Shown piece by piece: positions 17,533-40,653 of a stretch of 64,000 nt of DNA (positions are counted from its first letter, which is position 1; each line of letters starts with the position of its first letter). The stretch is from Thiotrichaceae bacterium (GTDB taxonomy: Bacteria; Pseudomonadota; Gammaproteobacteria; Beggiatoales; Beggiatoaceae). Below the pieces are notes generated by a model that saw only the letters and a program-made list of their open reading frames with translations, made no database searches and was not told where the DNA came from. The stretch is from NCBI GenBank assembly GCA_028688145.1, contig JAQTYU010000002.1, forward strand, positions 186,001 through 250,000, read 5' to 3'. Made by a program: the position numbers and the translations under genes.

Positions 17533-18530
17533 TATTCCACCACCAAAACAATTTTACCAAAATTCTGGTTTTGTTCCATATAATCATGGGCTTCCCGCAC
17601 TTTGCGCCATGAAAATACGGAATCAATAATCGGCTTGATTTTGCCCTCAGCCAGCACAGGTAGCCAACGTTGAGTAAAACGGGCAGTCATGGCGCGTTTG
17701 TCTGCCAAACTGCGCGAGCGCATCACACAGCCTAAAATTTGTAAACGCCGACTTAACACCAGCCCTAAATTTAATTCAGCTTTCGCGCCACCCATTAAAG
17801 CAAGCATCACCAAGCGTCCCGCAGGTTTGAGCACGGATAAATTACGCGCCAGATAACTTGCGCCTAAAAAATCTATAACCACATCCACACCCGCACCGTC
17901 AGTTATCTCTTTAATTTCTTCAACAAAATCTTGGGTGTGATAACAAATCCCGACATCTGCGCCCAAATCCAAAGCTTTTTGAATTTTGAGCGGAGAACCT
18001 GCGGTGATGTAGACCTCTGCGCCGCAATATTTTGCCAATTGAATGGCAGCCGTACCCACGCCGCTGCCGCCCGCATGAATTAACACGCGATTGCCCGCTT
18101 GCAAACGACCCAATTGAAATAAGCTTTCATCAGCGGTTAAAAATACCTCAGCCACCGCCGCCGCTTGGTGAAAATCCCAATGTTCAGGAATTGGCATTGC
18201 CATTGCCGCATCGCACAACGCGTATTCAGCATAAGCCCCGCCGCCAACTAAACTAAACACCCGCTGTCCCACTTCAAAACCTTGCACCGCACTGCCCCAC
18301 GCCACCACCTCGCCCGCCAATTCCAAGCCTAAAACTTCAGACTCGCCTGCAGGCGCGGGATATAAGCCTTTGCGCTGTAAAATGTCGGCGCGATTTAAGG
18401 CGGTGGCATGTACCCGCACCAATAATTGTTCGGGATTGGGAGTGGGGATGGGCAGCTCGCTGAATTTCAACACGTTGCTGCTGCCAAATCCGACCAAGGT
18501 GACGGCTTGCATTTGTTTAGTCTTTGCCAT
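17532..18530 (-). CDS. NADPH:quinone oxidoreductase, zinc-independent MDR type (PIG3-like)
   Basis: Medium-chain dehydrogenase/reductase without the catalytic zinc cysteine pattern. It has ALNRADILQRKGLYPAP and LGLELAGEVVAWG, typical of the quinone oxidoreductase/TP53I3 group, then the Rossmann motif VLIHAGGSGVGTAAIQLAK for NADPH and the closing VFSWRKVREAHDYMEQ. At 332 residues it has the usual length. Expected to reduce quinones or reactive enones in the cytoplasm. Its start overlaps the 3' end of the RND permease gene by 14 bp, suggesting translation coupled to the pump, possibly as a joint response to redox-active toxic compounds (inference). Confidence 0.9.
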   Translation of the reverse strand: MAKTKQMQAVTLVGFGSSNVLKFSELPIPTPNPEQLLVRVHATALNRADILQRKGLYPAPAGESEVLGLELAGEVVAWGSAVQGFEVGQRVFSLVGGGAYAEYALCDAAMAMPIPEHWDFHQAAAVAEVFLTADESLFQLGRLQAGNRVLIHAGGSGVGTAAIQLAKYCGAEVYITAGSPLKIQKALDLGADVGICYHTQDFVEEIKEITDGAGVDVVIDFLGASYLARNLSVLKPAGRLVMLALMGGAKAELNLGLVLSRRLQILGCVMRSRSLADKRAMTARFTQRWLPVLAEGKIKPIIDSVFSWRKVREAHDYMEQNQNFGKIVLVVE

Positions 18531-21500
18531 TTTTCTTAGGTTGTGGGTCTTTATTGGTTGCTTCGGGCTGTTCTTGCATCAGATCAGATTTGATGCGAAT
18601 GCCGCGCCGTGGCACACGTTTACGCAGGGAACGCTCGCTATTTTCAGGTTTTTGCGCTTCGCTTTCAGAGTCGGCATTAAGCAGTTGTGGACTATCCAAG
18701 GATTCTTTAGTTTGCGCGGCTAAGCCCAATTCTTGCGGCATTGCCACGGGCGGCACTTTCATCGAATCAGTGATGACGGTCACTGCAGCGGGCGTAGAAC
18801 TGGTGTTGGGGCTGGGCATGGTTTGTGACGAAGGCATCACCACGCTCGAAGCCACGGGCGGCGTATTCATTGCGACAGGGGTCGGCTGGGGCGGCGCGCT
18901 GGGAAAAAAGCGTTGTTGCAGCATCGCCCACAACATCATCACCCCACTGCGAACCACAATAAAGATTGCACGCAGCACATAAAACACCACCACGGCAATA
19001 TTGACCAGTTTCACCCAAATTCTTAACCATAGCGGGGTTTGATAGCCCACGGGCGCGGTAACTGCATCAGGCAAATCCAGCGCGTGAGCATTGCACAAAG
19101 CTTGTTTCCCAATACTTAAACAGCCTAGTGGAATCACCACCAAAGTCAAGATAGTCGAAATCATCACCCCAAACAGCAGGGAAATTGCCATGCCTTGGAA
19201 AATGGGGTCGAATAAAATCACCCCTGAACCTGCCACCAAGGCAAGCGCGGTAATCATAATCGGGCGCGTCCGTGTTTTACACGCCAGAATTACCGCATCT
19301 TGCAAAGGCGTGCCTTGCTGCACTTCGTGGATTGAGTAATCGACCAGCAAGATAGAATTACGCACAATAATCCCCGCCAATGCAATCCAGCCAATCATCG
19401 AGGTGGCGGTGAACGAGGCATTCATCAGCCAATGTCCGGGAATAATACCCAATAAAGTCAAAGGAATCGGGGCCATAATCACCGCAGGCACGACAAAATT
19501 ACCAAATTGCCACACCACTAAAATATAAATCAGCACCAAGGCTGCGCCAAATGCCAGCCCCATGTCGCGGAAAGTTTCAAAAGTCACCGTCCATTCGCCG
19601 CCCCATTCAAAGGAAGAACGTCCGTCGGAGGGGGGTGCACCGAAATAACTGCCTGAATTGACTTTGATGCCGTCGGGGGCGGTGTAATCTTTGAGCAGTT
19701 TTTCCACTTCAAACATGCCATAAATCGGCGCGCCCAAACGATAACGCTTATCTTCGCCTTGCATTCCAATGGCATCACCGACAACGAATTCTACAGGACG
19801 TAAATCTTTATGGAAAATTAAGGGGTCTTGCGGCACTTTCACAAACTTGCCCAATTCTGCCAAAGGCACAGTTTTTCCGATGTTGCTGCTAATTGGCAAG
19901 TCGTATAAACGGGTTAATTGTGAGCGCATCGCCAAAGGCACTTGCAGCACGATATAAGTCGGCTCTAACACCGTGCCCACTTTAATATCGCCCAATTTGA
20001 AGCCGCCCAATGCCATGCTGAGATTATTGTTAATCGAGTCAACCGCAATCCCACGGCGCACGGCTTTTTCAGTGTCCACTTCAAAACGCCAGACTTCATG
20101 CGGGCTTGCCATGAAATTATCCACATCCGCCAAAGTTTTAGCTTGGCTGAAAGTTTCGGTCATTTTTTGGGCAAATTGGCGACGGCTGGCATCATCAGGT
20201 CCATAAATTTCCGCAACGACGGATTGCAACACGGGCGGACCGGGTGGCATTTCTACCACGGTGATTTTTGCAGGGGAGTTTTTAATTAAGCCTGCAAGCA
20301 GTTCGCGGGCAGCCAGTGCGATTTCATGGCTGCTGCGGGCGCGATCTTTTTTGTCGGTGAGCTGAATATGAATATCGGCTTGCCACGGTTGTGCGCGCAA
20401 ATAATAATGGCGCACCATCCCGTTAAAATCAAAGGGTTGTGAAGTACCGACATAAGTTTGCACCGCCGTGACTTCAGGCATTTCCCGCAGTTTTTCTGCT
20501 ATTTGGAAAGTTAAATTTGCGGTGCTGGGCAAAGCTGTGCCTTCGGGCATGTCAACAAACACGTTGAATTCGGGCTTGTTATCCAAAGGCAACATTTTCA
20601 CTTCCACCGCTTGAAAATAAAACATTGAGCAGGCGGCAAAAAATGCGACCACTAAACCGACAAAAAAGGTCCAGCCTTTGAATTTATTATTGAACAAGGG
20701 CGGAATAATGCCGCGAAACCAGCTTTCTAATCTTTCGTTGTGATGATGTTCTTTATGGGCGGCGATTTGTAAGTTTTTCAGGGTGGGCTTGATACGCATT
20801 GCCAGCCACGGGGTGAAAATAAACGCGGCAAGGAGAGAAAATAACATCGCCACTGAACCCAAGGCAGGAATCGGAGCCATGTAGGGACCCATCATGCCCG
20901 ACACAAAACCCATCGGCAACAAGGCGGCAACCACGGTAAAAGTCGCCAAAATCGTGGGATTACCAACTTCACGCACCGCATCCACAGCAGTCGCGGTGTC
21001 GGTATTTTCTTTGAGCAGCCAGCGGCGATAAATATTTTCAATCACCACAATCGCATCATCCACCAAAATCCCGATTGAGAAAATCAGCGCGAATAAGCTG
21101 ACGCGGTCAATAGTAAAGCCCAAAATCCATGCGGAAAATACGGTAATTAAAATCACCACGGGAATCACTAAAGTCACCACAATCGCGGGACGAATTCCCA
21201 AAGTGAACAACACTAAAATCGTCACTGCGCCCGTGGCAATGAATAATTTCTTAATTAAATCATTGACTTTATCATTAGCGGTTTTGCCGTAATTGCGGGT
21301 AATTTCGACGTGCACATTGTCAGGAATCACGCGCCCTTTCAGCACTTCCACATGAGCAATCACTTCATTAGCGACGCTCACGCCGTTGGTGTGAATTTTC
21401 TTCGCCACTGCAATCGTGACCGCAGGTGTGCCATTGATTTGTGGCGTATTTTTCACCGTACCTTCGGGAACAGCGACATCATAACGATAGGCCGTGCCTG

Positions 21501-22377
21501 AAAAATAATTCACCATTTGCCGTGTGTCTTCCGCGCCTTGGCTGACGTTGGCGACATCGCGCACATAAACGGGCGCATTGGCATGTGTGCCGACCACTAA
21601 TTGCGCGACATCGACCGCCGTGCGTAAAAACGAGCCAGTGTACACGGTGAAATGGTTATTATCACTTTCAACATGCCCCGCCGCTTTTTCACTGTTGGCG
21701 GTTTGAATGGTATTCGCGACTTGTGCCAAGCTCAGCCCAAAACCCGATAAACGTTCAGGCATGATTTCGACGCGCACTTGTTCGGCACGTCCACCCACAA
21801 TGAAGCTTTGTCCTGTGCCGTTAATTTCCTTAAGATTTTGCATTACATCTAATGCCAGAGTACGCAAGGAGCTGTCGTCCACATCTTCAGACCACAGCGT
21901 TAAATTCACCACGGGCACATCATCAATGCCCTTGGGTTTAACCAAAGGCGGCGAAACCCCCGGTGGAATCTTGTCGAGATTAGATTGCAATTTGTCGTGA
22001 ACTTTGAAAACTGAAGTTTCCATATTTTCCCCGACTTCAAATTGTACCGTGACCATGCCTTGTCCATGCTCTGCGACAGAATACACATGTTTCACGCCGG
22101 GGATTTCGCTCATGATGCGTTGCAATGGGTCAATCGCGAGACTGGAAACTTGGGCAGAAGACGCGCCTGCATACTGCACAAATACGTCAATCATCGGCAC
22201 GGAAATTTGTGGGTCTTCTTGGCGCGGGGTAAAGGCTAAGCCTAAAATTCCCATGAATAACATTGCAAAAAATAACAACGGTGATAAGGGCGAATGAATA
22301 AAAGTTTTCGCCATGCGCCCTGCCAAACCTAAATTAGGTTGTGGGGGAGTCATTGGGGGGTGTTGTTGGTCAGTCAT
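18517..22377 (-). CDS. RND efflux permease with C-terminal extension
   Basis: Inner-membrane proton-driven pump of the RND (AcrB-like) class. The usual 12 helices and two large periplasmic loops are present. Asp440-Asp441 in SIGILVDDAIVVIENI (helix 4) is the proton-relay pair. The sequence PRQEDPQISVPM near the N-terminus and the GMQGEDK periplasmic segment suggest the divergent HAE-like subgroup often annotated as AcrB/AcrD/AcrF family. It is 1286 residues long against about 1030-1080 for the family. The extra part from about residue 1085 holds a 13th hydrophobic segment (about 1118-1143), then a Pro/Ser/Thr-rich stretch and a basic end (SLRKRVPRRGIRIKS). It lies 5 bp after the adaptor gene. 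Substrate unknown. Confidence 0.92.
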   Translation of the reverse strand: MTDQQHPPMTPPQPNLGLAGRMAKTFIHSPLSPLLFFAMLFMGILGLAFTPRQEDPQISVPMIDVFVQYAGASSAQVSSLAIDPLQRIMSEIPGVKHVYSVAEHGQGMVTVQFEVGENMETSVFKVHDKLQSNLDKIPPGVSPPLVKPKGIDDVPVVNLTLWSEDVDDSSLRTLALDVMQNLKEINGTGQSFIVGGRAEQVRVEIMPERLSGFGLSLAQVANTIQTANSEKAAGHVESDNNHFTVYTGSFLRTAVDVAQLVVGTHANAPVYVRDVANVSQGAEDTRQMVNYFSGTAYRYDVAVPEGTVKNTPQINGTPAVTIAVAKKIHTNGVSVANEVIAHVEVLKGRVIPDNVHVEITRNYGKTANDKVNDLIKKLFIATGAVTILVLFTLGIRPAIVVTLVIPVVILITVFSAWILGFTIDRVSLFALIFSIGILVDDAIVVIENIYRRWLLKENTDTATAVDAVREVGNPTILATFTVVAALLPMGFVSGMMGPYMAPIPALGSVAMLFSLLAAFIFTPWLAMRIKPTLKNLQIAAHKEHHHNERLESWFRGIIPPLFNNKFKGWTFFVGLVVAFFAACSMFYFQAVEVKMLPLDNKPEFNVFVDMPEGTALPSTANLTFQIAEKLREMPEVTAVQTYVGTSQPFDFNGMVRHYYLRAQPWQADIHIQLTDKKDRARSSHEIALAARELLAGLIKNSPAKITVVEMPPGPPVLQSVVAEIYGPDDASRRQFAQKMTETFSQAKTLADVDNFMASPHEVWRFEVDTEKAVRRGIAVDSINNNLSMALGGFKLGDIKVGTVLEPTYIVLQVPLAMRSQLTRLYDLPISSNIGKTVPLAELGKFVKVPQDPLIFHKDLRPVEFVVGDAIGMQGEDKRYRLGAPIYGMFEVEKLLKDYTAPDGIKVNSGSYFGAPPSDGRSSFEWGGEWTVTFETFRDMGLAFGAALVLIYILVVWQFGNFVVPAVIMAPIPLTLLGIIPGHWLMNASFTATSMIGWIALAGIIVRNSILLVDYSIHEVQQGTPLQDAVILACKTRTRPIMITALALVAGSGVILFDPIFQGMAISLLFGVMISTILTLVVIPLGCLSIGKQALCNAHALDLPDAVTAPVGYQTPLWLRIWVKLVNIAVVVFYVLRAIFIVVRSGVMMLWAMLQQRFFPSAPPQPTPVAMNTPPVASSVVMPSSQTMPSPNTSSTPAAVTVITDSMKVPPVAMPQELGLAAQTKESLDSPQLLNADSESEAQKPENSERSLRKRVPRRGIRIKSDLMQEQPEATNKDPQPKKNGKD

Positions 22378-22382
22378 GATAA

Positions 22383-23522
22383 TTAACGCGCCGCAGGCGT
22401 TGCAGTTTGATTAACCCAGCCTGAACTTACGCCAGCGGGCGGATTCAATTCGATCACTTCCCCAGCTTTTAAGCCGCTGAGAATGCTGACATGGGTGGCA
22501 TCCATTTCTTTCCCTGTGCGTACTAGGCGTAGTTCACGTTTATTATTATTGAGTACATAAATTCCGGGTAGACTGCCACGCCATAAAATTGCACTGCGCG
22601 GAATCACGGGCAAATTTTGCGCGGCAACACTCAAATCAGGGATTTCTACTTGCGCATATTGCCCAGGCCCTGTGCGTGTGCCAATGGGCAAATCACATTT
22701 AACGGTGACGGTGTGGCGTTGAGGGTCTGCAATCGGGAAAATCTGAGCAACACGTACTTGCATATTGGTGTTGAGCACATCTAATTTTGCGGGCAAACTC
22801 ATGCCCACACTGAGCGCGGGCACAAGTCGCGCGGGCACTTCGAGTTGTACTTGTAAATATTCAGTGTCGGCAAAATGCAATAAGGGCTGACCGGGTTGCA
22901 CACTGTCGCCAATTTCTACGAATTTCTTGGTGATAACGCCATTAAAGGGCGCACGTCCGCGCGCATCGCGCAGTTTACTGTCAATTTGTTCAATTTGTGA
23001 CTGGGCGCGAATTAATGAACCTCGGGCTTGGTCAATTTGCGTGCCGTAGGTGTGTAAATCGGCTTGGCGATCCACCACAGAATTATTTTGTCCCATAACA
23101 TCACCCATCGGTTTGGTGAAAAAATGGTCAAACATGCTAGGCATTCCCATCCCATTCATGCTGTGTGCGGTCGAGTTAGGTGACCACAGCTCACGCGAAT
23201 ATTGCACGCTGGCATTGCGCAATGAAGCATCTGCATTCATCATTTCAGCCACGGCGGCGCGGCGTTGCGCGAGTAATTCAGTGTCGTCCACAGTGACCAG
23301 AATCGTGTCTTTGGGGAAACGACTGCCTTCTTCGCCTATCAAGACATTAATTCGCCCCGGAATCTGGGCTGAAAGTGTCACTTCTTTGTAGGGGATAACC
23401 GTTCCCCCCAACATCACGCCCGTATTAATCGCATAATCGCGCACCACTTGGGTTTCCGCGTTGGCGAGAGGAGTCTGGCATAGCCAAATCAGGGGAATTA
23501 TTCTGGTGAGGTGTTTCAACAT
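22383..23522 (-). CDS. RND efflux periplasmic adaptor (membrane fusion protein)
   Basis: Periplasmic adaptor linking the RND permease to an outer-membrane channel. Signal peptide (MLKHLTRIIPLIWLCQTPLANA), lipoyl-like half-motif GGTVIPYKEVTLSAQIPGRI, a coiled-coil hairpin, the second lipoyl half RAPFNGVITKKFVEIGDSVQPGQPLLHF, then beta-barrel and membrane-proximal domains. I take the internal ATG ending at 23522 as start because a signal peptide then follows directly and AGGAAAGG stands seven bases upstream; the longer frame adds 12 charged residues. A Met/Asn-rich segment (SMNGMGMPSMFDHFF then KPMGDVMGQNN) is inserted in the hairpin region. No outer-membrane channel gene is adjacent. Confidence 0.9.
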   Translation of the reverse strand: MLKHLTRIIPLIWLCQTPLANAETQVVRDYAINTGVMLGGTVIPYKEVTLSAQIPGRINVLIGEEGSRFPKDTILVTVDDTELLAQRRAAVAEMMNADASLRNASVQYSRELWSPNSTAHSMNGMGMPSMFDHFFTKPMGDVMGQNNSVVDRQADLHTYGTQIDQARGSLIRAQSQIEQIDSKLRDARGRAPFNGVITKKFVEIGDSVQPGQPLLHFADTEYLQVQLEVPARLVPALSVGMSLPAKLDVLNTNMQVRVAQIFPIADPQRHTVTVKCDLPIGTRTGPGQYAQVEIPDLSVAAQNLPVIPRSAILWRGSLPGIYVLNNNKRELRLVRTGKEMDATHVSILSGLKAGEVIELNPPAGVSSGWVNQTATPAAR

Positions 23523-23590
23523 GCGTTCGCCTTTCCTAATGCGGAAAATAATGCTCAATATTTGAAGGTTTAGAAATCTTACACGCTAAA

Positions 23591-23757
23591 TTATAAGTAC
23601 GCAGGGTGTATAAGGCGTAGCCGTTATACACCTTTAACTGCATAAAGTATCAAATCGCAAGCTCTAAGGGTGGAATACGGCTTGCGCCTATTCCACCCTA
23701 CGCTTGATAAAGCTTTTTGAGTTAATTAGGTTGTTAATTCAACTAGTAACTCCTAAA
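23591..23757. repeat. Chimeric MITE-like repeat
   Basis: The left part, TACGCAGGGTGTATAAGGCG through GTTATACACC, and the right part, CTACGCTTGATAAAGC through AATTCAACTAGTAACTCCTAA, match the 16.3-kb MITE. Between them at 23667-23699 is a different palindrome, AGGGTGGAATACGGC with CCTATTCCACCCT, the module that forms the ends of the 7.6-8.1 kb block. One element thus carries modules of two families. Confidence 0.7.
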
Positions 23758-23823
23758 AGTTTAGTAGTATATTCTAATTTACTGGATGTGAGTCTGTACA
23801 TGGTTTTGGGTTATTCACTGTTC

Positions 23824-23858
23824 AAGACCTGCACGGTTTTAAAAACTGAGCAGGTCTT
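23824..23858. terminator. Hairpin downstream of the SCP2 gene
   Basis: AAGACCTGC (23824-23832) pairs with GCAGGTCTT (23850-23858). It lies 20 bp past the SCP2-gene stop on the minus strand. No T-run follows, so termination may be weak. The stem shares the AGACCTG core with the terminators at 12.9 and 32.4 kb. Confidence 0.5.
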
Positions 23859-23877
23859 CACACACAGCGTGCTTTAT

Positions 23878-24276
23878 TTACTTTACTTGTCCCATCGCAG
23901 TGAAGCTCTTGATAAAAGGACCTGCCATACGCGGGTCTTTGACCATTGCCATGTAATCACCGATTTTAAACTTCAATTTGCCCGTGGTATACGCCATCCC
24001 TAAGCCCATCATCCCGATGCCTTTGCTCAGCCATTTTTCCCAACTGTCACGGCTGGCGCGTAAATCCCAATTCAAATCTTCGCCCTGATAAGTGCCTGCT
24101 TTGACCGCACGCCCGTTTTCAATCACCAACACGCCAGAAGGCAATTCTTCGGTGTCGAAACCATAGGCAATGGTCGAGGTAAAATTGATGGCTGCCAACG
24201 CATCCGCCAATTCAGGTTCAGCATTCCATGCCTGCATATAAGCTTTCATCCACTCGTCTGAAAATAATTCAGCCAT
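23878..24276 (-). CDS. SCP2 sterol-binding-domain protein
   Basis: A 132-residue single SCP2-like lipid-binding domain. The first helix (DEWMKAYMQAWNAEPEL), the strand pair with GVLVIENGRAVKAGTY, the DLNWDLRASRDSWEKWL motif and the GKLKFKIGDYMAMVKD stretch follow the family order. Bacterial SCP2 proteins bind acyl chains or hydrophobic ligands; the partner is unknown. The start has AAGGAG seven bases upstream. It is monocistronic, between a repeat region and the divergent McrB-like gene. Confidence 0.85.
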   Translation of the reverse strand: MAELFSDEWMKAYMQAWNAEPELADALAAINFTSTIAYGFDTEELPSGVLVIENGRAVKAGTYQGEDLNWDLRASRDSWEKWLSKGIGMMGLGMAYTTGKLKFKIGDYMAMVKDPRMAGPFIKSFTAMGQVK

Positions 24277-24527: not shown

Positions 24528-26384
24528 ATGAGTTTTATTACCGTCGGTAATGCCCTCGGCTGCACCATCAACTCACATCGCAGCGGCTGGGATGGCAATA
24601 TTTGTAAAAATGCAGAAACTTGGAATTGTTCAGCAAAACAACAGTTTCGTACTGATTATTGTCAACAAGGCGATCCGCGTTGTTACCATATTCATATTTT
24701 TGAAGATCATGACCCGCATTGTTTAATTGACGATTTAGGTATTGGCTGGTTATTAGAACCTTATCCTGAAGCGCTAAACAATCAAATTTTATTGTTTTGG
24801 GGAAAACGTTTTCAAGAACCGCGTGGCATCAGTGAAATTACCACCCGCCCTAAAGATTATGTGTTTGGTGCGTATCGGGTTCGCAGTGTTTCTCAGCAAA
24901 AAATCAATGAATTTAAAACTCTGTGGAGAATAGAGCCTTATCCTGATGGATGGACACGTTTTCAACTACCCCATATTTTAACCGTCTACTATAAAAGCAT
25001 TTTAGGCGGAGTCTATTTGAAAGAAGTGAATCGGGTGGCTGTGGAAAATATGTTTGAAAAAGCAGCCGAACAAGCGAATAGTCCGAATCCCAATTGGCAC
25101 GATCCCCGCGATATTGAACGCTTCAATTATTTCCACGAACATTTATCCGAATGGCTAGAAGCAGGCAAAGACAACGCGCAACACATTCAAGAATTGATGC
25201 ACGATACTCCCGCGCGTAATTATGGGCGCAGCCTACCGATGTTGCCGCAAGTCGTTCCTAACAGCAATGGCAGTAGCGGTAGCAGCGGCATTCTTCGTTC
25301 CTCCAGTCCCTTTGACGAACTGAAGAATTTTGAAGCGCGTAAAGCTCCCGTTACCCCAATCAGTCCAAACTTGGTAAAACCGTCCGTGCCGCGTGGCAAT
25401 GTTGAACCCTTGTCGCCGAGCTATCCCTTGCTCGAAAAAGACAGTGTGCGCGATAAGATTAAATCGGTGTACAGCAAAGACGTGTTAGAAGCGATTATGG
25501 CAGTGTCTTTGACTAAGAATATTTTAATTCTCACGGGCAATCCGGGCGTTGGGAAAAGTACACTCGCAATTGATTTAATTGACGATGCTGAGCGTAAGTT
25601 AATCGTGCCTGTGGGTTCGACATGGCGCGGGCGTGAAGATTTACTCGGTTATGTGAATCCCATCAGCAATGAATTTGAACCGACAGAATTCACTAAATTC
25701 CTCGCCAAAGCCGAAGCCGCTTGGCGTAAGGGCGATAAACGCACGTATTTGGTGATTTTTGAAGAGTTTAACCTCAGTCAGCCTGAATATTGGTTCGCCG
25801 ATATTTTGGTACGCTCGCAATATCCCGATGACCAAGAAAAGTTACGCACCATTGAATTGGGCGGCAAAAGCATTCGCGGTGTCGCCAATACCAGCCGCAT
25901 TTTAATCACCCCGACTTTGCGTTTTGTGGCAACCATTAACAATGACCACACCACTTTATCTTTGTCGCCTCGGGTATTAGACCGCGCCTCCATTGTCGAA
26001 CTGACTTTAGAACCCCGCGCCACGATTGAACGTGCGCGTTTGTATTTAGAAGAAATGCAAATCATGGCAATTGAAGAACTGGATGCCTTGTTAAAATACA
26101 AGGGCGCGATGTTCTCGTTGCGGGCGGCAGAGTCTTTACGACGCTGTTTGGACAATTTGCAAACCTTAGAAATGAACAGTCCTTGGGACGCGCTCGACAT
26201 CGTGCTATTGCAGCAAGTGTTGACCAAAGTGCGTTTAATGGTGGGCGATCCTTCTAATGAAAGCCTGATGCAAAGCCTTGAAGATTGGAGCGAAAGTTAC
26301 GGGAAATATCTGCGTAAATGCGCCAATTTAATTAATTCCTGGGCAGAAGCCTTAAAAGATGGTCGGGATGTGATTCAAGCGTGA
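24528..26384 (+). CDS. McrB-like AAA+ protein with N-terminal Cys/His module
   Basis: A 618-residue protein in three parts. Residues 1-200 form a module with GWDGNICKNAETWNCSAKQQ, CYHIHIFEDHD and ILLFWGKRF/YVFGAYRV, a pattern I associate with N-terminal domains of some defence-related helicases and ATPases; it may recognise a substrate. Residues 230-300 are a Ser/Gly/Pro linker. The AAA+ domain has Walker A GNPGVGKST (337-345), Walker B LVIFEEFN with Glu412-Glu413, a sensor region FVATINNDHTTLSLSPRVLDRAS and a C-terminal helical lid. The TINND...SPRVLDRA arrangement is that of McrB-type motors. It overlaps its partner gene by four bases (GTGA), so both are translated together. Defence role is inferred. 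Confidence 0.75.
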   Translation: MSFITVGNALGCTINSHRSGWDGNICKNAETWNCSAKQQFRTDYCQQGDPRCYHIHIFEDHDPHCLIDDLGIGWLLEPYPEALNNQILLFWGKRFQEPRGISEITTRPKDYVFGAYRVRSVSQQKINEFKTLWRIEPYPDGWTRFQLPHILTVYYKSILGGVYLKEVNRVAVENMFEKAAEQANSPNPNWHDPRDIERFNYFHEHLSEWLEAGKDNAQHIQELMHDTPARNYGRSLPMLPQVVPNSNGSSGSSGILRSSSPFDELKNFEARKAPVTPISPNLVKPSVPRGNVEPLSPSYPLLEKDSVRDKIKSVYSKDVLEAIMAVSLTKNILILTGNPGVGKSTLAIDLIDDAERKLIVPVGSTWRGREDLLGYVNPISNEFEPTEFTKFLAKAEAAWRKGDKRTYLVIFEEFNLSQPEYWFADILVRSQYPDDQEKLRTIELGGKSIRGVANTSRILITPTLRFVATINNDHTTLSLSPRVLDRASIVELTLEPRATIERARLYLEEMQIMAIEELDALLKYKGAMFSLRAAESLRRCLDNLQTLEMNSPWDALDIVLLQQVLTKVRLMVGDPSNESLMQSLEDWSESYGKYLRKCANLINSWAEALKDGRDVIQA

Positions 26385-27670
26385 ACCCGTTTATTCAGCA
26401 ACTGGTTGATGATTTAAAAGCCTTTTCAGCGGAATTGCTCGCGCCGGGTTTACACAATCCGCAGCAAGTTCCTGCTGGATTGGTCACTGTCTCCAATACG
26501 GCCGCCTTGTTGAAATCTATCGAGTTTTTGACAGCCTTGCTGCCAAAATTGGTGGACGAATTACAAACCACGGAAGCCTCGCGCACGGTGATGCTGCATT
26601 ATACCTCTGTGCCAAAACGTGCCAGTTTGTCGCGCCGCCCCAGCGATTATCAAGAAGATGCGCATAAAAATTTATTACCTGCGCGCTGGCTGACGACTTT
26701 GCCCGTGGCAGAAATTGATATTCGTCCGCTGCGTTGGCTGTTGTATTTGTTGGAATTGCAGCAAAGTGCCTTGAGCAATTTACGCACCCGCACTACCAAA
26801 TATATTGATAATTCCTTGCTCACCCAGCAAGGCAGTTCCAGTTATGCCCAAAGTGATCGCGCTACGTTATTAGACATGCGTACCCGTTTGGAAGAGGCGC
26901 AAACGCGGCTCGAACATGCGCGTTTAGCCTTAATGCGCGATGTGCATGTGCGCTTTTCGGCTTCACAAACTATTCCGCATCCTTATCCGCGCTCGCCTGC
27001 ATGGTCGCATTTACGCTTATATGCGCAGCAACTGATTAATCCGACTGAATATTTACCCAGTTTCTTACATAATTTATTGTATCGAACCTTGGAAATTGCC
27101 GACACCCCGTATTTATATCAGCGGTGGTGTGGGGTTAAATTGCTGAATGCTTTGGAAACCTTGGGTTGGATTTGTTATGACGACCCTGTCGGCGCGTTAT
27201 TTTTGGGCGGCGAAGTGCGTTTAAATAAACAAGATGTGCAGATTAGTTTGTGGGTGGAGCCGCGTTTTTCCAAGCGCAAAGCCCATCCTAGCGGCTTTAT
27301 TTGTAAAGAAGTTGCTGAAACCCATCCTGATTATTTTATTGTCACTCCCGGCCCGCATGGGGTGGATGATGCCTTTATTTTAGACCCGACCACCAGTGCG
27401 GCATCAGGGGTGCGTGAAGGCAAGGGTAAATATTTAGACACCATTGAATCTTTGGAAATGCTGACGGTGGCGGGTGTACCTGTGGTGCGTAATCCGATTC
27501 GTGCATGGTCAGCCGCGCCTTTACACACGCCGCATTGTGAACTTGGGGATATTGAAGGGCGCACGGGCACAATTCCAATGCACCCTTTAGATTGGAGTCC
27601 GCATCCCTTATTAGCTTGGTTGCGCGATGTCGAAGCCTATGCGCTGGCGTGGGGAAAACTGCGGATATAG
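26381..27670 (+). CDS. DUF2357/McrC-like partner protein, nuclease motif apparently lost
   Basis: A 429-residue protein translated from a GTG that overlaps the stop of the McrB-like gene. The N-terminal two thirds are helical, with a coiled-coil at about 165-190 (RTRLEEAQTRLEHARLAL). The C-terminal part has the layout of the PD-(D/E)XK domain of DUF2357/McrC partners: YLYQRWCGVKLLNALETLGW (Trp249) as the helix, then HPDYFIV (Asp317), then FILDPTTSA (Asp335). In active relatives the helix normally carries Glu and the last strand reads D-x-K; here Gln247 and Pro-Thr-Thr stand in those places, so cleavage activity is doubtful. The family call rests on order and spacing, not on a search. Confidence 0.6.
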   Translation: MNPFIQQLVDDLKAFSAELLAPGLHNPQQVPAGLVTVSNTAALLKSIEFLTALLPKLVDELQTTEASRTVMLHYTSVPKRASLSRRPSDYQEDAHKNLLPARWLTTLPVAEIDIRPLRWLLYLLELQQSALSNLRTRTTKYIDNSLLTQQGSSSYAQSDRATLLDMRTRLEEAQTRLEHARLALMRDVHVRFSASQTIPHPYPRSPAWSHLRLYAQQLINPTEYLPSFLHNLLYRTLEIADTPYLYQRWCGVKLLNALETLGWICYDDPVGALFLGGEVRLNKQDVQISLWVEPRFSKRKAHPSGFICKEVAETHPDYFIVTPGPHGVDDAFILDPTTSAASGVREGKGKYLDTIESLEMLTVAGVPVVRNPIRAWSAAPLHTPHCELGDIEGRTGTIPMHPLDWSPHPLLAWLRDVEAYALAWGKLRI

Positions 27671-27677
27671 TTTTAGC

Positions 27678-27770
27678 TTCCCCCTTTGAAAAAGGGGGAA
27701 TGAGGGGGATTTAAGATCGTGGGAATTTTAGAAATTTTTAAATCCCCCTGCCCCCTTTTTCAAAGGGGGG
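27678..27770. repeat. CCCCCTTTGAAAAAGGGGG palindromic repeat, full copy
   Basis: TTCCCCCTTTGAAAAAGGGGG, written as CCCCCTTTGAAAAAGGGGG, is followed by GGGGGATTTAAGATCGTGG and, after the centre, by TTTTTAAATCCCCCTGCCC and CCCTTTTTCAAAGGGGGG. The whole 93-bp unit folds as one long palindrome with a self-complementary hairpin in each arm. A near copy lies at 40.6 kb. It follows the McrC-like gene by only 8 bp. Confidence 0.85.
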
Positions 27771-29077: not shown

Positions 29078-31063
29078 TTACTTTTCAATAACCCAATCTT
29101 CCAAGACCACACCAATTTTTCCAGGGAAAATCATAAAGGTGAGCTCTTTACCATCTCGTAATACATGCAGTGTTTTAGCCGCACCGTCTTTAGGTTCTTG
29201 ATTACGATGAGCAATGAAGTTGTGATAATTCAACACAGGTTGATTATCGTATTTAGTAAATATGTCACCCACTTGAATGCCTATTTTTGCAGTATGCTCG
29301 TCAGAAATCACTTCAGTGACTCGTACCTTCAGGCGGTTTTCTAAACCTGCAATATTTTTCCGAAAATTATTTCCGACCGTTAAAACAAGTGGGTGATCTA
29401 CCGGAAATATTTTTTTAAGTATTGTTAAAGCACGATCACACCATAGTATGGATTGGGAATAATTACCCTGTGCGTCATGCCATAGAGCAATATTATTCAG
29501 GCTAGTAGCAACGTCAGGGTGTTCCTTACCTAATACGTTTTCAAGTATTGCTAAACTTCGTTTATATAGGGGATAAGCTTGAATATAATTACCTTGGACT
29601 CTATGTAACTCAGCCAAATTGTTAAGATTAATGGCCACAAGAGGATGTTCCTTACCTAAAGTATTTTCTCTGATATATAAACTAGACTCATGTAAGGGTT
29701 TAGCTTGGATGAAATCACCCTGAGCTTCATACAATAAAGCAAGATTATTGAGGCTAGTGGCAATGAGAAAATGTTCTTTACCTAAAGATTTTTCCCAAAT
29801 TTTTAAACTGCGTTTATATAAAGATTCTGCTTGCATATGCTCGCCTTGGATTTGATACAATAAGGCGAGATTATTGAGGCTGGTGGCAACATCAGGATGT
29901 TCTTTTCCTAAAACAGTCTCTCTAATAAATAAACTGCGTTCATACAATAACTTAGCTTGAGTGTAGTTGCCTTGTATTCTATACAATTCAGCAAAATTAT
30001 TAAGACTTTGGGCAACATCAGGATGTCCTCCACCTAAAACTTGTTCTCTAATTGTTAGACTACACTCATACAACTGTTTGGCTTGGTTATAATTTCCTTG
30101 AGCCTGATGTAGTAACGCAAGATTATTAAGGTTAGTAGCAACAATAGGATGTTTCTTACCCAAAGATTTTTCTGAAATTTTTAGACTACGTTCATACAGT
30201 GGTTTAGCCCGATCATAATTTCCTTGGGTATAATACAGCAGGGCGAGATTATTGAGACTAGTAGCAATGTTAGAATCGTCCTCATTTAAGACTTTTTCTC
30301 TAATTGCTAAACTACGTTCATGCAATAATTGGGCTTGGATATAATCTCCTCTATCATAAAATAACACTGCAAGATTATTAAGGCTAGTGGCAATGTCAGG
30401 ATGTTCTTTTCCTAAGACAGTCTCTCTAATAAGTAAACTACGTTCATAAAAAAATTTTGCTTGATCATATTGACCAGCAATGTGCAATGAACCGCCTGCC
30501 TCATTTAGATAAAGCCCTAATTGCTCCTCATACTTTGCAGGCAATAACTCTACCGCCGCCTGATAATATTTTGCAGCTTCCAAATAAGCCAACTGCGCCA
30601 TTTTTAACTCACCATTGGCAAACTTTGACTCCGCCGCTGAAAGAAAACGCTTCTCAGCAACTTCCTGCAACAACTTCGCTGCTGCCACATCTTTATCACT
30701 GGCTTGGTTGTAAAGTAATTCTGCGCGGTCAAAATTACCTTGTTCTAACGCAGCTTTTGCCTCATTCAATAAATGTAAAACTTCAGAGTCATCCGAGGTA
30801 AATGCCTGAACTTTTTCCAATAAGTCTTTATAGCGATTCGCGATTTCAGTCAGAGTGCTGTCTAGTTTTTCTAAGGGCACTTGTTGCTTTTCCAAAGTCA
30901 GCAAAAAGCTATCTAAGATTTTCTGTGTTACCCCAAGTCTCTCGCTGGTAACACCTAACAACGTTGCAACACGTAAATATTCATCATGAGGAATTCCATG
31001 ATTATCAATAGAGACATGAATATTCCCACCCGCTTTGACATCCTTAAAATCCACTGTAGACAT
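29078..31063 (-). CDS. TPR-PDZ protein with effector-associated-like N-terminus
   Basis: A 661-residue protein. The N-terminus FKDVKAGGNIHVSIDNHG resembles the GGNI/xxGDI beta segments attached to effector-associated domains in bacterial conflict proteins. Residues about 25-100 are helical, 100-200 hold degenerate TPR units, and about 200-558 contain a ladder of kinesin-light-chain-type TPRs with a 42-residue period (ATSLNNLALLY.AQGNY.QA, LYERSLKI.E..LGKEHP), eight of them nearly identical. The last 100 residues form a PDZ-like domain (VTEVISDEHTAKIGIQVGDIFTKYDNQPV). No catalytic domain is visible, so it is probably a scaffold. It starts 18 bp after the small upstream gene, with AGGGGGAAATC before the ATG. 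Confidence 0.8.
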   Translation of the reverse strand: MSTVDFKDVKAGGNIHVSIDNHGIPHDEYLRVATLLGVTSERLGVTQKILDSFLLTLEKQQVPLEKLDSTLTEIANRYKDLLEKVQAFTSDDSEVLHLLNEAKAALEQGNFDRAELLYNQASDKDVAAAKLLQEVAEKRFLSAAESKFANGELKMAQLAYLEAAKYYQAAVELLPAKYEEQLGLYLNEAGGSLHIAGQYDQAKFFYERSLLIRETVLGKEHPDIATSLNNLAVLFYDRGDYIQAQLLHERSLAIREKVLNEDDSNIATSLNNLALLYYTQGNYDRAKPLYERSLKISEKSLGKKHPIVATNLNNLALLHQAQGNYNQAKQLYECSLTIREQVLGGGHPDVAQSLNNFAELYRIQGNYTQAKLLYERSLFIRETVLGKEHPDVATSLNNLALLYQIQGEHMQAESLYKRSLKIWEKSLGKEHFLIATSLNNLALLYEAQGDFIQAKPLHESSLYIRENTLGKEHPLVAINLNNLAELHRVQGNYIQAYPLYKRSLAILENVLGKEHPDVATSLNNIALWHDAQGNYSQSILWCDRALTILKKIFPVDHPLVLTVGNNFRKNIAGLENRLKVRVTEVISDEHTAKIGIQVGDIFTKYDNQPVLNYHNFIAHRNQEPKDGAAKTLHVLRDGKELTFMIFPGKIGVVLEDWVIEK

Positions 31064-31081
31064 GATTTCCCCCTGTTAAAA

Positions 31082-31540
31082 TCACGACTTTTTTGCAGAA
31101 ACTTTCAAACCAGTAATCTCAATATCTCCGCTAAAATCACCCTTCTTAATTTTCACCCCCGTCGCCTGTTCCCCAGAGACCGAGATTTCTTTCAAACGCA
31201 GATTCGCCGCTTTCACGTCTTCCAAATTAACCCCAATCGCCTGCGCCAATTGCGGCGCGTGTTCCTCGATTGCCGTCAACAAAGCCCGCGCTTGTTTTAA
31301 TAAATCATCATCTTTATCCGCGCCAGAATCCTGCAAATCTTCTTTCAAAGATTCACGTTTAGAAGCAGAGTCAGGTTTTTTCTCCAAAGCCTCCAAACTT
31401 GCATTGGCTTGCGGATGTTTTTCTTGAATACGTTTTTTAATCGCGGCGTATAAATCTTGAACAATCAACTTTGTAGTGCTGCCCAAAGCTTCAGCCGCGC
31501 CCGTTGCGATGGCGGTGACAATTGCTGCAATTGCGTCCAT
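31082..31540 (-). CDS. Small effector-associated-like helical protein
   Basis: A 152-residue protein. The N-terminus (AIVTAIATGAAEALGSTTKLIVQDLYAAIK, cited in part as ATGAAEALGSTTKLIVQDLY) is a hydrophobic Ala/Gly helix pair, followed by a charged helical middle with two short units (ASLEALEKKPDSASKRESL) and LLKQARALLTAIEEHAPQ. The C-terminus VNLEDVKAANLRLKEI then GVKIKKGDFSGDIEITGL is a short beta run. I have seen this layout in small proteins encoded beside STAND ATPases, caspase-like or TPR proteins in conflict systems. The GD(F)xGDI tail echoes the GGNI segment of the downstream TPR protein. AGGAG precedes the ATG. Confidence 0.65.
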   Translation of the reverse strand: MDAIAAIVTAIATGAAEALGSTTKLIVQDLYAAIKKRIQEKHPQANASLEALEKKPDSASKRESLKEDLQDSGADKDDDLLKQARALLTAIEEHAPQLAQAIGVNLEDVKAANLRLKEISVSGEQATGVKIKKGDFSGDIEITGLKVSAKKS

Positions 31541-31613: not shown

Positions 31614-31731
31614 GAGCTTTTCACCTCCTTTGAAAAAGGGGGAAGCTAAACACCGTATCTAGCCTTGTTCTACGCTTAACCTAATGGTAGTTGAAGTGTA
31701 GGCTGTATAAGCGTAGCGTCATACACCTTAA
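31614..31731. repeat. Two short repeat remnants
   Basis: AGCTTTTCACCTCCTTTG-AAAAAGGGGGAAGCT (31614-31646) is the left hairpin of the CCCCCTTTGAAAAAGGGGG family. GTGTAGGCTGTATAAGCG with GTCATACACCTT (31697-31731) is the centre of the MITE-like family. Both are isolated fragments in a 280-bp gap that holds nothing else recognisable. Confidence 0.6.
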
Positions 31732-35284: not shown

Positions 35285-35382
35285 AACTGCGCCCCAACCC
35301 CTATAAAGAGGACTTGTCTAGCTTCCCCCTTTGAAAAAAGGGGAGATTATTGTCTTCTCCTTTAGGGGCGGGGGGTGCAGTT
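35285..35382. repeat. CCCCTAAAGG palindromic repeat inside the sulfate operon
   Basis: ACTGCGCCCCAACCCC and CTCCTTTAGGGGCGGGGGGTGCAGT, cited as TTTAGGGGCGGGGGGTGCAG, are the outer arms. Its centre carries GCTTCCCCCTTTGAAAAAAGGGG, a hairpin from the other palindromic family (core CCCCCTTTGAAAAAAGGGG). It lies between sbp and cysT. Confidence 0.75.
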
Positions 35383-40559: not shown

Positions 40560-40653
40560 TCCCCCTTTGAAAAAGGGGGATTGAGGGGGATTTAAGATCG
40601 TGGCAACTTGTGAGATTTTTAAATCCCCCCAGCCCCCTTTTTCAAAGGGGGAG
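40560..40653. repeat. CCCCCTTTGAAAAAGGGGG palindromic repeat, full copy
   Basis: CCCCCTTTGAAAAAGGGGG, then GAGGGGGATTTAAGATCGTGG, cited as GGGGATTTAAGATCGTGG, then TTTTTAAATCCCCCCAGCC and CCTTTTTCAAAGGGGG. It has the same arms and the same AAGATCGTGG core as the copy at 27.7 kb. It separates the PAS gene from the ubi hydroxylase gene. Confidence 0.85.

Follow-up and report, generated by a model that had tools for sequence, protein, structure and literature searches.

Two plus-strand genes, here called A and B, lie next to each other in a 64,000-nucleotide stretch (the window) of contig JAQTYU010000002.1 (positions 186,001–250,000) from a Thiotrichaceae bacterium of the Beggiatoaceae (assembly GCA_028688145.1). 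Gene A is predicted to encode a McrB-like AAA+ protein and gene B a DUF2357/PDDEXK_7-like partner in which the catalytic lysine appears to be replaced, and the two open reading frames overlap by four bases (GTGA), as a preliminary description made from the letters of this stretch had reported. That description took the pair for a mobile accessory unit; comparison with relatives shows a single-copy, vertically inherited and usually unlinked pair of genes that is found throughout most of the family. The features discussed are collected in Table 1; handles such as G015 (genomes) and L104 (loci) are ours, and the genome of the window is G000.

Table 1. Features of genes A and B, their surroundings and related loci (window positions unless a locus handle is given)
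Feature	Position	Strand	Remarks
Gene A	24528..26384	+	618 aa; N-terminal Cys/His module, linker, McrB-like AAA+ domain (NxD branch), predicted
A N-terminal module, residues 1-215	24528..25172	+	Identity comparison with relatives
A Cys/His cluster, residues 12-65	24561..24722	+	C12 H17 C26 C34 C45 C52 H54 H56 C65
A variable linker, residues 216-305	25173..25442	+	
A AAA+ domain, residues 306-618	25443..26381	+	PDC-M26A and P0002 matches
Walker A GNPGVGKS, residues 337-344	25536..25559	+	Intact
Walker B LVIFEEFN, residues 408-415	25749..25772	+	E412-E413 replaces D-E; N415 kept; invariant
NxD signature N471-N472-D473	25938..25946	+	Sensor 1 region
Gene B	26381..27670	+	429 aa; GTG start; DUF2357/PDDEXK_7-like, predicted; 4-base overlap with A
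B predicted long helical arms, residues 37-188	26489..26944	+	AlphaFold2 secondary structure, low confidence overall
B PD-(D/E)XK-like core, residues 239-348	27095..27424	+	Profile comparison, models
Gln247 of LYQxW motif	27119..27121	+	Gln in intact-looking relatives too
Asp317 of HPD	27329..27331	+	Aligns with Asp of PDDEXK_7 RPD
Asp335-Pro-Thr337	27383..27391	+	D kept; Thr at catalytic Lys position of D-P-K
Lys348	27422..27424	+	Invariant; only nearby invariant Lys able to be a migrated catalytic Lys
Conserved divergent block upstream of A	18517..24276	-	RND permease 18517-22377, HlyD-type adaptor 22383-23558, 132-aa protein 23878-24276
Hairpin of CCCCCTTTTTCAAAGGGGG repeat	27680..27769	.	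Downstream of B; z -6.7
N-module/NsnA-like fusion next to NsnB-like ATPase	L063:4059-6925 (G019:C11)		
Second McrB-like/PDDEXK_7 pair	L066:4826-6859; L105, L106, L104		Genomes G010, G029, G015

Protein A gives a clear AAA signal, with no family match passing the curated cut-off. It matches the PADLOC model PDC-M26A (E 2.7e-25) and is 30% identical over 297 amino acids to P0002, an Mrr_N + AAA_5 protein of a relative; judged by these similarities it is a McrB-like AAA+ protein, as first described. Its Walker A motif, N415, N471-N472-D473, R482 and R486 are the same in all 33 A sequences compared. Of the two signature forms expected of McrB proteins, NxxD or NxD, it has the latter, which marks one branch of the McrB-like GTPases (PMC11090510). 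The Asp-Glu pair expected in a McrB Walker B motif is replaced in all sequences by E412-E413, a conservative change; the counterparts in E. coli McrB are D279/E280/N282 (PMC6624300).

The N-terminus of A bears out the unusual Cys/His module of the preliminary description: nine cysteines and histidines between residues 12 and 65, all invariant in the same 33 sequences, form a probable metal site. The module carries a motif like that of a helicase-associated module, and a search on this basis returned plasmid proteins of that kind, candidates of the RecD-like helicase family PDC-S68. The local hhalign score between the two N-terminal modules is 29.5, against a maximum of 25.9 in 200 shuffles, with a probability of only 22% and a global-mode score at chance level, so that this apparent kinship is a remote similarity and a lead rather than membership. 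Elsewhere in 299 Pseudomonadota genomes the search for the module gave one spurious match with stops and nothing else. G019 has a second protein with an A-type module, P0001, in which it is joined to a GmrSD_N/NsnA protein (NsnA E 3.7e-124) encoded beside NsnB (E 4.3e-83). Over 663 bases the DNA of the P0001 module is 92.8% identical to that of gene A in the same genome, which marks the fusion as recent; the module is thus a portable predicted sensor, lately grafted onto the predicted defence protein NsnA. No literature was found on NsnA/NsnB.

Protein B matches nothing in Pfam (scanned to E<=1, including PF10117, PF04411 and PF09823), NCBIfam or PADLOC, and direct BLASTP against PDDEXK_7 proteins gives no alignment. 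Its relationship emerges when its profile is compared with five PDDEXK_7 (PF04411) proteins, L104–L106 among them: hhalign gives a probability of 91% and E 9.4e-7, with a score of 58.5 where 150 column shuffles reach at most 25.2, and the C-terminal domain alone scores 56.7 against a shuffle maximum of 22.8. By this profile evidence B is a homolog of the DUF2357/PDDEXK_7 proteins, and the earlier assignment as DUF2357/McrC-like holds. The alignment pairs LYQxW of B with LYQ/ExW, HPD (316-317) with RPD, and D335-P with D-P/A-K.

An active PD-(D/E)XK site has an Asp, an Asp or Glu and a Lys; in E. coli McrC these are Asp244, Asp257 and Lys259 (PMC6624300). In all 32 B sequences D317 and D335 are kept and the lysine position is T337, whereas each of the five aligned PDDEXK_7 proteins has the lysine of D-x-K. 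E238, Q247, E293, E313, D317, D330, D335, P336, T337, R345, K348 and E356 are invariant among the 32, and residue 338 is Thr in 30. The preliminary description had read Gln247 and Asp335-Pro-Thr-Thr correctly and had taken both as possible catalytic losses. Gln247 fails as evidence of inactivation: three of the five PDDEXK_7 proteins (L104–L106) also have Gln there and each keeps D-P-K, so this position is uninformative on activity. The predicted lesion is Thr337 in place of the catalytic Lys, with both metal-binding Asp residues retained. Because Thr337 occupies the position of a lysine common to all five PDDEXK_7 proteins, B has probably lost the ability to cleave; the inactive nuclease first proposed is to this extent supported, and the substitution is shared by every orthologue, a comparison that the description had called for.

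An AlphaFold2 model of full-length B (30 orthologues) has long helices at residues 37-68, 115-148 and 154-188 followed by an alpha/beta domain (pLDDT 62, pTM 0.45), and the helical arms may correspond to the stalk of McrC. The C-terminal domain modelled alone reaches pLDDT 65 and pTM 0.67, with pLDDT of ~80-90 over residues 245-334. With this isolated domain VIA-align ranks BsoBI first (153 residues, rmsd 5.1; Z 6.2, within the chance range), and lower rows include HsdR 3h1t (Z 4.3), 1y88 (4.1) and Cas4 8d3l (3.3), likewise within the chance range; all four are PD-(D/E)XK proteins, BsoBI being a restriction enzyme. The higher rows for the full model are mostly unrelated long-helix proteins, and its alignment with McrC 6ut7 (Z 6.5, rmsd 15) is too loose to weigh. 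Structure comparison of the models is thus compatible with a PD-(D/E)XK fold in B, short of proof.

Whole-genome searches covered 43 genomes assigned to Beggiatoaceae by their named relatives. Orthologues, each as a single copy, were found for A in 34 of these and for B in 35: both genes are present in 34 genomes, neither in eight, and B alone in one genome that is 63% complete. A 35th match to A, in G016, was set aside: it covers the AAA part alone at 28% identity and belongs to another AAA protein. Of the eight genomes that have neither gene, seven form one RpoB clade (support 1.00) and the eighth is 52% complete. The co-occurrence P value of 6e-8 ignores relatedness and should carry little weight, since one event may account for the absences. 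Outside the family but within the class, 53 genomes were searched for B and none has it. When 84,980 species were scanned with two conserved peptides, a search able to reach near relatives only, 31 loci came up, titled Parabeggiatoa, Thiomargarita, Thioploca, Marithrix, Halobeggiatoa, Albibeggiatoa, Beggiatoa, Thiotrichaceae/Thiotrichales and, once, gammaproteobacterium. Searches of phages, plasmids and viral contigs found no relatives of the pair; matches to Rhizobium plasmids (E 2-5) look phosphodiesterase-like on inspection by eye and are put down to chance.

In most genomes identity to the genome of the window is 73-82% for RpoB, 80-87% for the A N-module, 74-84% for the A AAA domain and 61-70% for B, and A evolves about as slowly as RpoB. 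G015 and G019, both of which have A and B adjacent, differ: despite close RpoB their identities are 71-72% (N-module), 79-80% (AAA domain) and 55% (B), and in them A and B evolve far faster than RpoB predicts. The splits shared with the RpoB tree number 17 of 26 for A and 15 of 25 for B, with a maximum of 3 in 1000 permutations; the two genes follow the RpoB phylogeny and are inherited vertically. Their distances are correlated at 0.92 (0.87 without the fast pair G015/G019), and the partial correlation given RpoB is 0.93 (0.79 without that pair); A and B co-evolve beyond RpoB, though usually unlinked. Between close pairs of genomes the ratio of nonsynonymous to synonymous substitution rates is 0.02-0.08 for A, 0.03-0.18 for B and 0.03-0.12 for the nuclease-like domain of B, which is under purifying selection. 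The rpoB genes of several relatives (L152, L154–L157) are far longer, with open frames of 1490-2135 amino acids; the match to the model is interrupted around positions 369-400 and 1070-1106, a pattern that inteins would give.

Adjacent genes, as in a McrBC operon, are seen only in G000, G015 and G019; in the other genomes with both genes they are unlinked, for example 60 kb apart in G002 and 430 kb apart in G010, and the two-gene cassette first described is not a unit in most relatives. The place of A is nearly fixed, divergent from the RND permease/HlyD adaptor/132-aa protein block at 24 of 28 informative loci. The neighbours of B, whose names were assigned by eye from sequence, include murA in several genomes, glmM or MFS/ssb genes in others, and rpoH, a pilU-like gene and pha-type genes elsewhere. 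G000 and G015 have the block-A-B order in common, and this points to an ancestral adjacency and a later relocation of B. Genomes of the pair-less clade keep the block and have a different conserved neighbour at the place of A; with the root of the tree uncertain, the pair may have been either lost there or gained late by the others. In the window, SecY, RpoA, S4 and L2 lie at 50-61 kb, with the pair ~21 kb from this ribosomal-protein/rpoA cluster, and sulfate transport genes at 32-35 kb. No HEPN, other nuclease, restriction or modification gene recurs beside A or B among the loci compared, and the suggestion that the pair recruits another effector finds no genomic support.

Repeats had been thought to bound the pair on both sides. 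The only one is the hairpin downstream of B, a counterpart sought upstream near A being absent, and its repeat, CCCCCTTTTTCAAAGGGGG, is dispersed, with 114 arms genome-wide at <=1 mismatch; a mobile unit bounded by repeats is accordingly rejected. The repeat recurs in the window at 31624-31642, 35325-35343 and 40561-40651, and its arms are often paired, 71-72 bases apart. Patchy distribution, discordant phylogeny, island context and flanking repeats, the marks of a mobile defence cassette, are all lacking in a pair that is single-copy, vertical, family-wide and set in stable or house-keeping surroundings. Farther downstream, at 29078-31540, lie genes for a TPR-rich protein whose C-terminal part is PDZ-like and for a 152-aa protein upstream of it; short C-terminal motifs of the 152-aa protein resemble the N-terminus of the TPR-rich one, and the two may be a signalling pair.

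We consider it somewhat more probable than otherwise that A and B are a domesticated McrBC-type motor and pseudo-nuclease partner, a sensor or remodeller kept for a house-keeping task and not a mobile restriction cassette; the earlier proposal that the pair senses or remodels rather than cuts is kept, by inference, as the most likely reading. A would assemble into an NTPase ring and use its N-module to recognise a constant ligand of the cell or a nucleic-acid structure. The helical arms of B would enter this ring and stimulate the NTPase as McrC does, and its nuclease-like domain would grip nucleic acid without cutting. The complex would derive from a type IV restriction machine and have been retained for a house-keeping task specific to Beggiatoaceae. 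PcdA of Staphylococcus, a lineage-restricted McrB-family AAA+ protein diverted from restriction to cell division (PMC10602043), is a precedent for such diversion of McrB-family proteins. Several points weigh against domestication: the models of B are of only modest confidence (pLDDT 62 and 65), Foldseek with both returned nothing at E <= 0.001, the invariant Lys348 or Arg345 could supply the charge missing from the B site, the NsnA fusion and remote PDC-S68 similarity of the N-module point to a defence-type ligand, and slow evolution taken alone is compatible with immunity. A bolder version, which we find conceivable with rather less than even confidence, would place domestication of the type IV machine in the ancestor of the giant sulfur bacteria: its nuclease was disarmed, its genes drifted apart yet went on co-evolving, the ring took up an essential chromosome, RNA or division task of polyploid or giant cells, and the sensor module could be lent to NsnA.

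Catalytic lysines that have migrated are known in the PD-(D/E)XK superfamily, and B might accordingly be a fixed, still active type IV restriction nuclease, its site rearranged so that Lys348 or Arg345, from the next helix, does the work of the missing Lys. The invariance of D317, D335, R345 and K348 and the strong constraint on the nuclease-like domain favour such activity; the D-x-K lysine of all five aligned PDDEXK_7 proteins, the want of recurring restriction or modification genes nearby, and a near-universal, unlinked and vertical inheritance unlike that of restriction systems make it unlikely. An equally doubtful reading makes the pair a fixed immune sensor that detects phage and signals to a separate effector elsewhere, as in McrBC-like systems with an inactive PD-(D/E)xK protein and a partner nuclease. 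A belongs to the NxD branch, where inactive McrC homologs occur, and both the fusion beside NsnB in G019 and the remote likeness to PDC-S68 helicases suit a sensor. However, where the NxD-branch McrC homolog is inactive, a HEPN or other nuclease gene always lies close by (PMC11090510), and none recurs beside A or B; immune sensors also usually diversify, whereas A is as slow as RpoB, and the surroundings are core rather than island. Finally, A and B are unlinked in ~30 relatives, as would be expected if they were functionally unrelated and their overlap in the window incidental. This seems very improbable given their near-perfect co-occurrence (34/1/8 for both, B alone and neither), rates correlated after allowing for RpoB, adjacency in two RpoB lineages (G000; G015/G019) with the same neighbours in G000 and G015, and the established partnership of the McrB and DUF2357 families.

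If domestication is the correct reading, both halves of a McrBC-type defence machine would have been retained as house-keeping, where PcdA kept the motor only. With A and B, culturable Beggiatoa would offer a well-defined gene pair of lineage-wide occurrence for testing, and the portable Cys/His sensor module occurs in a core protein as well as, through a recent graft, in a protein of predicted defence function. The case also cautions against taking a McrBC-like operon seen in one genome for a defence island. No literature was found on McrBC in Beggiatoa, which the paper on the NxD branch and CoCoNuTs does not mention (PMC11090510).

Like McrBC of E. coli K-12 and Thermococcus gammatolerans, the pair joins an AAA+ motor with an N-terminal specificity-type domain to a predicted DUF2357 + PD-(D/E)XK partner encoded, in the genome of the window, downstream. 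It differs in having NxD rather than NxxD, a Walker B EE and an unrelated N-module, in the apparent lack of the catalytic Lys, and in being mostly unlinked and fixed in one family. The CoCoNuTs and related NxD-branch McrBC systems (Bell et al. 2024, PMC11090510) share the NxD signature and include inactive PD-(D/E)xK McrC homologs; unlike them, A and B have no recurring HEPN or other nuclease gene beside them, and no coiled-coil fusion was seen in A, whose linker is short and variable and to which no coiled-coil predictor was applied. PcdA resembles A as a McrB-family AAA+ protein restricted to one lineage, but its Walker motifs are degenerate, it carries EVE domains and it lacks a McrC partner (PMC10602043), whereas A has an intact Walker A, a different N-module and a partner; A is thus not of the PcdA type. 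The PDC-S68 helicases appear to share with A an N-terminal HxxGWxGx[IV]C module and colinear further motifs, with the module fused there to a helicase rather than an AAA+ domain and the similarity remote.

The nearest intact-looking counterparts found, as far as their sequences indicate, are in the family itself: G010, G029 and G015 also have an Mrr_N-AAA protein with an NxD-E motif (PDC-M26A; P0002) and a PDDEXK_7 protein with full RPD...DPK (L105/L106, L104). These share NxD and LYQxW with A and B and are likewise mutually unlinked, but they have an Mrr_N specificity domain and a complete predicted site and are confined to these three genomes. The Mrr_N-AAA gene of G029 adjoins a ZorA-like gene. 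The parts of A and B are thus of known kinds; what is unusual is their combination, a lineage-wide, slow-evolving, mostly unlinked and co-evolving McrB-like motor and Lys-less PDDEXK_7 partner.

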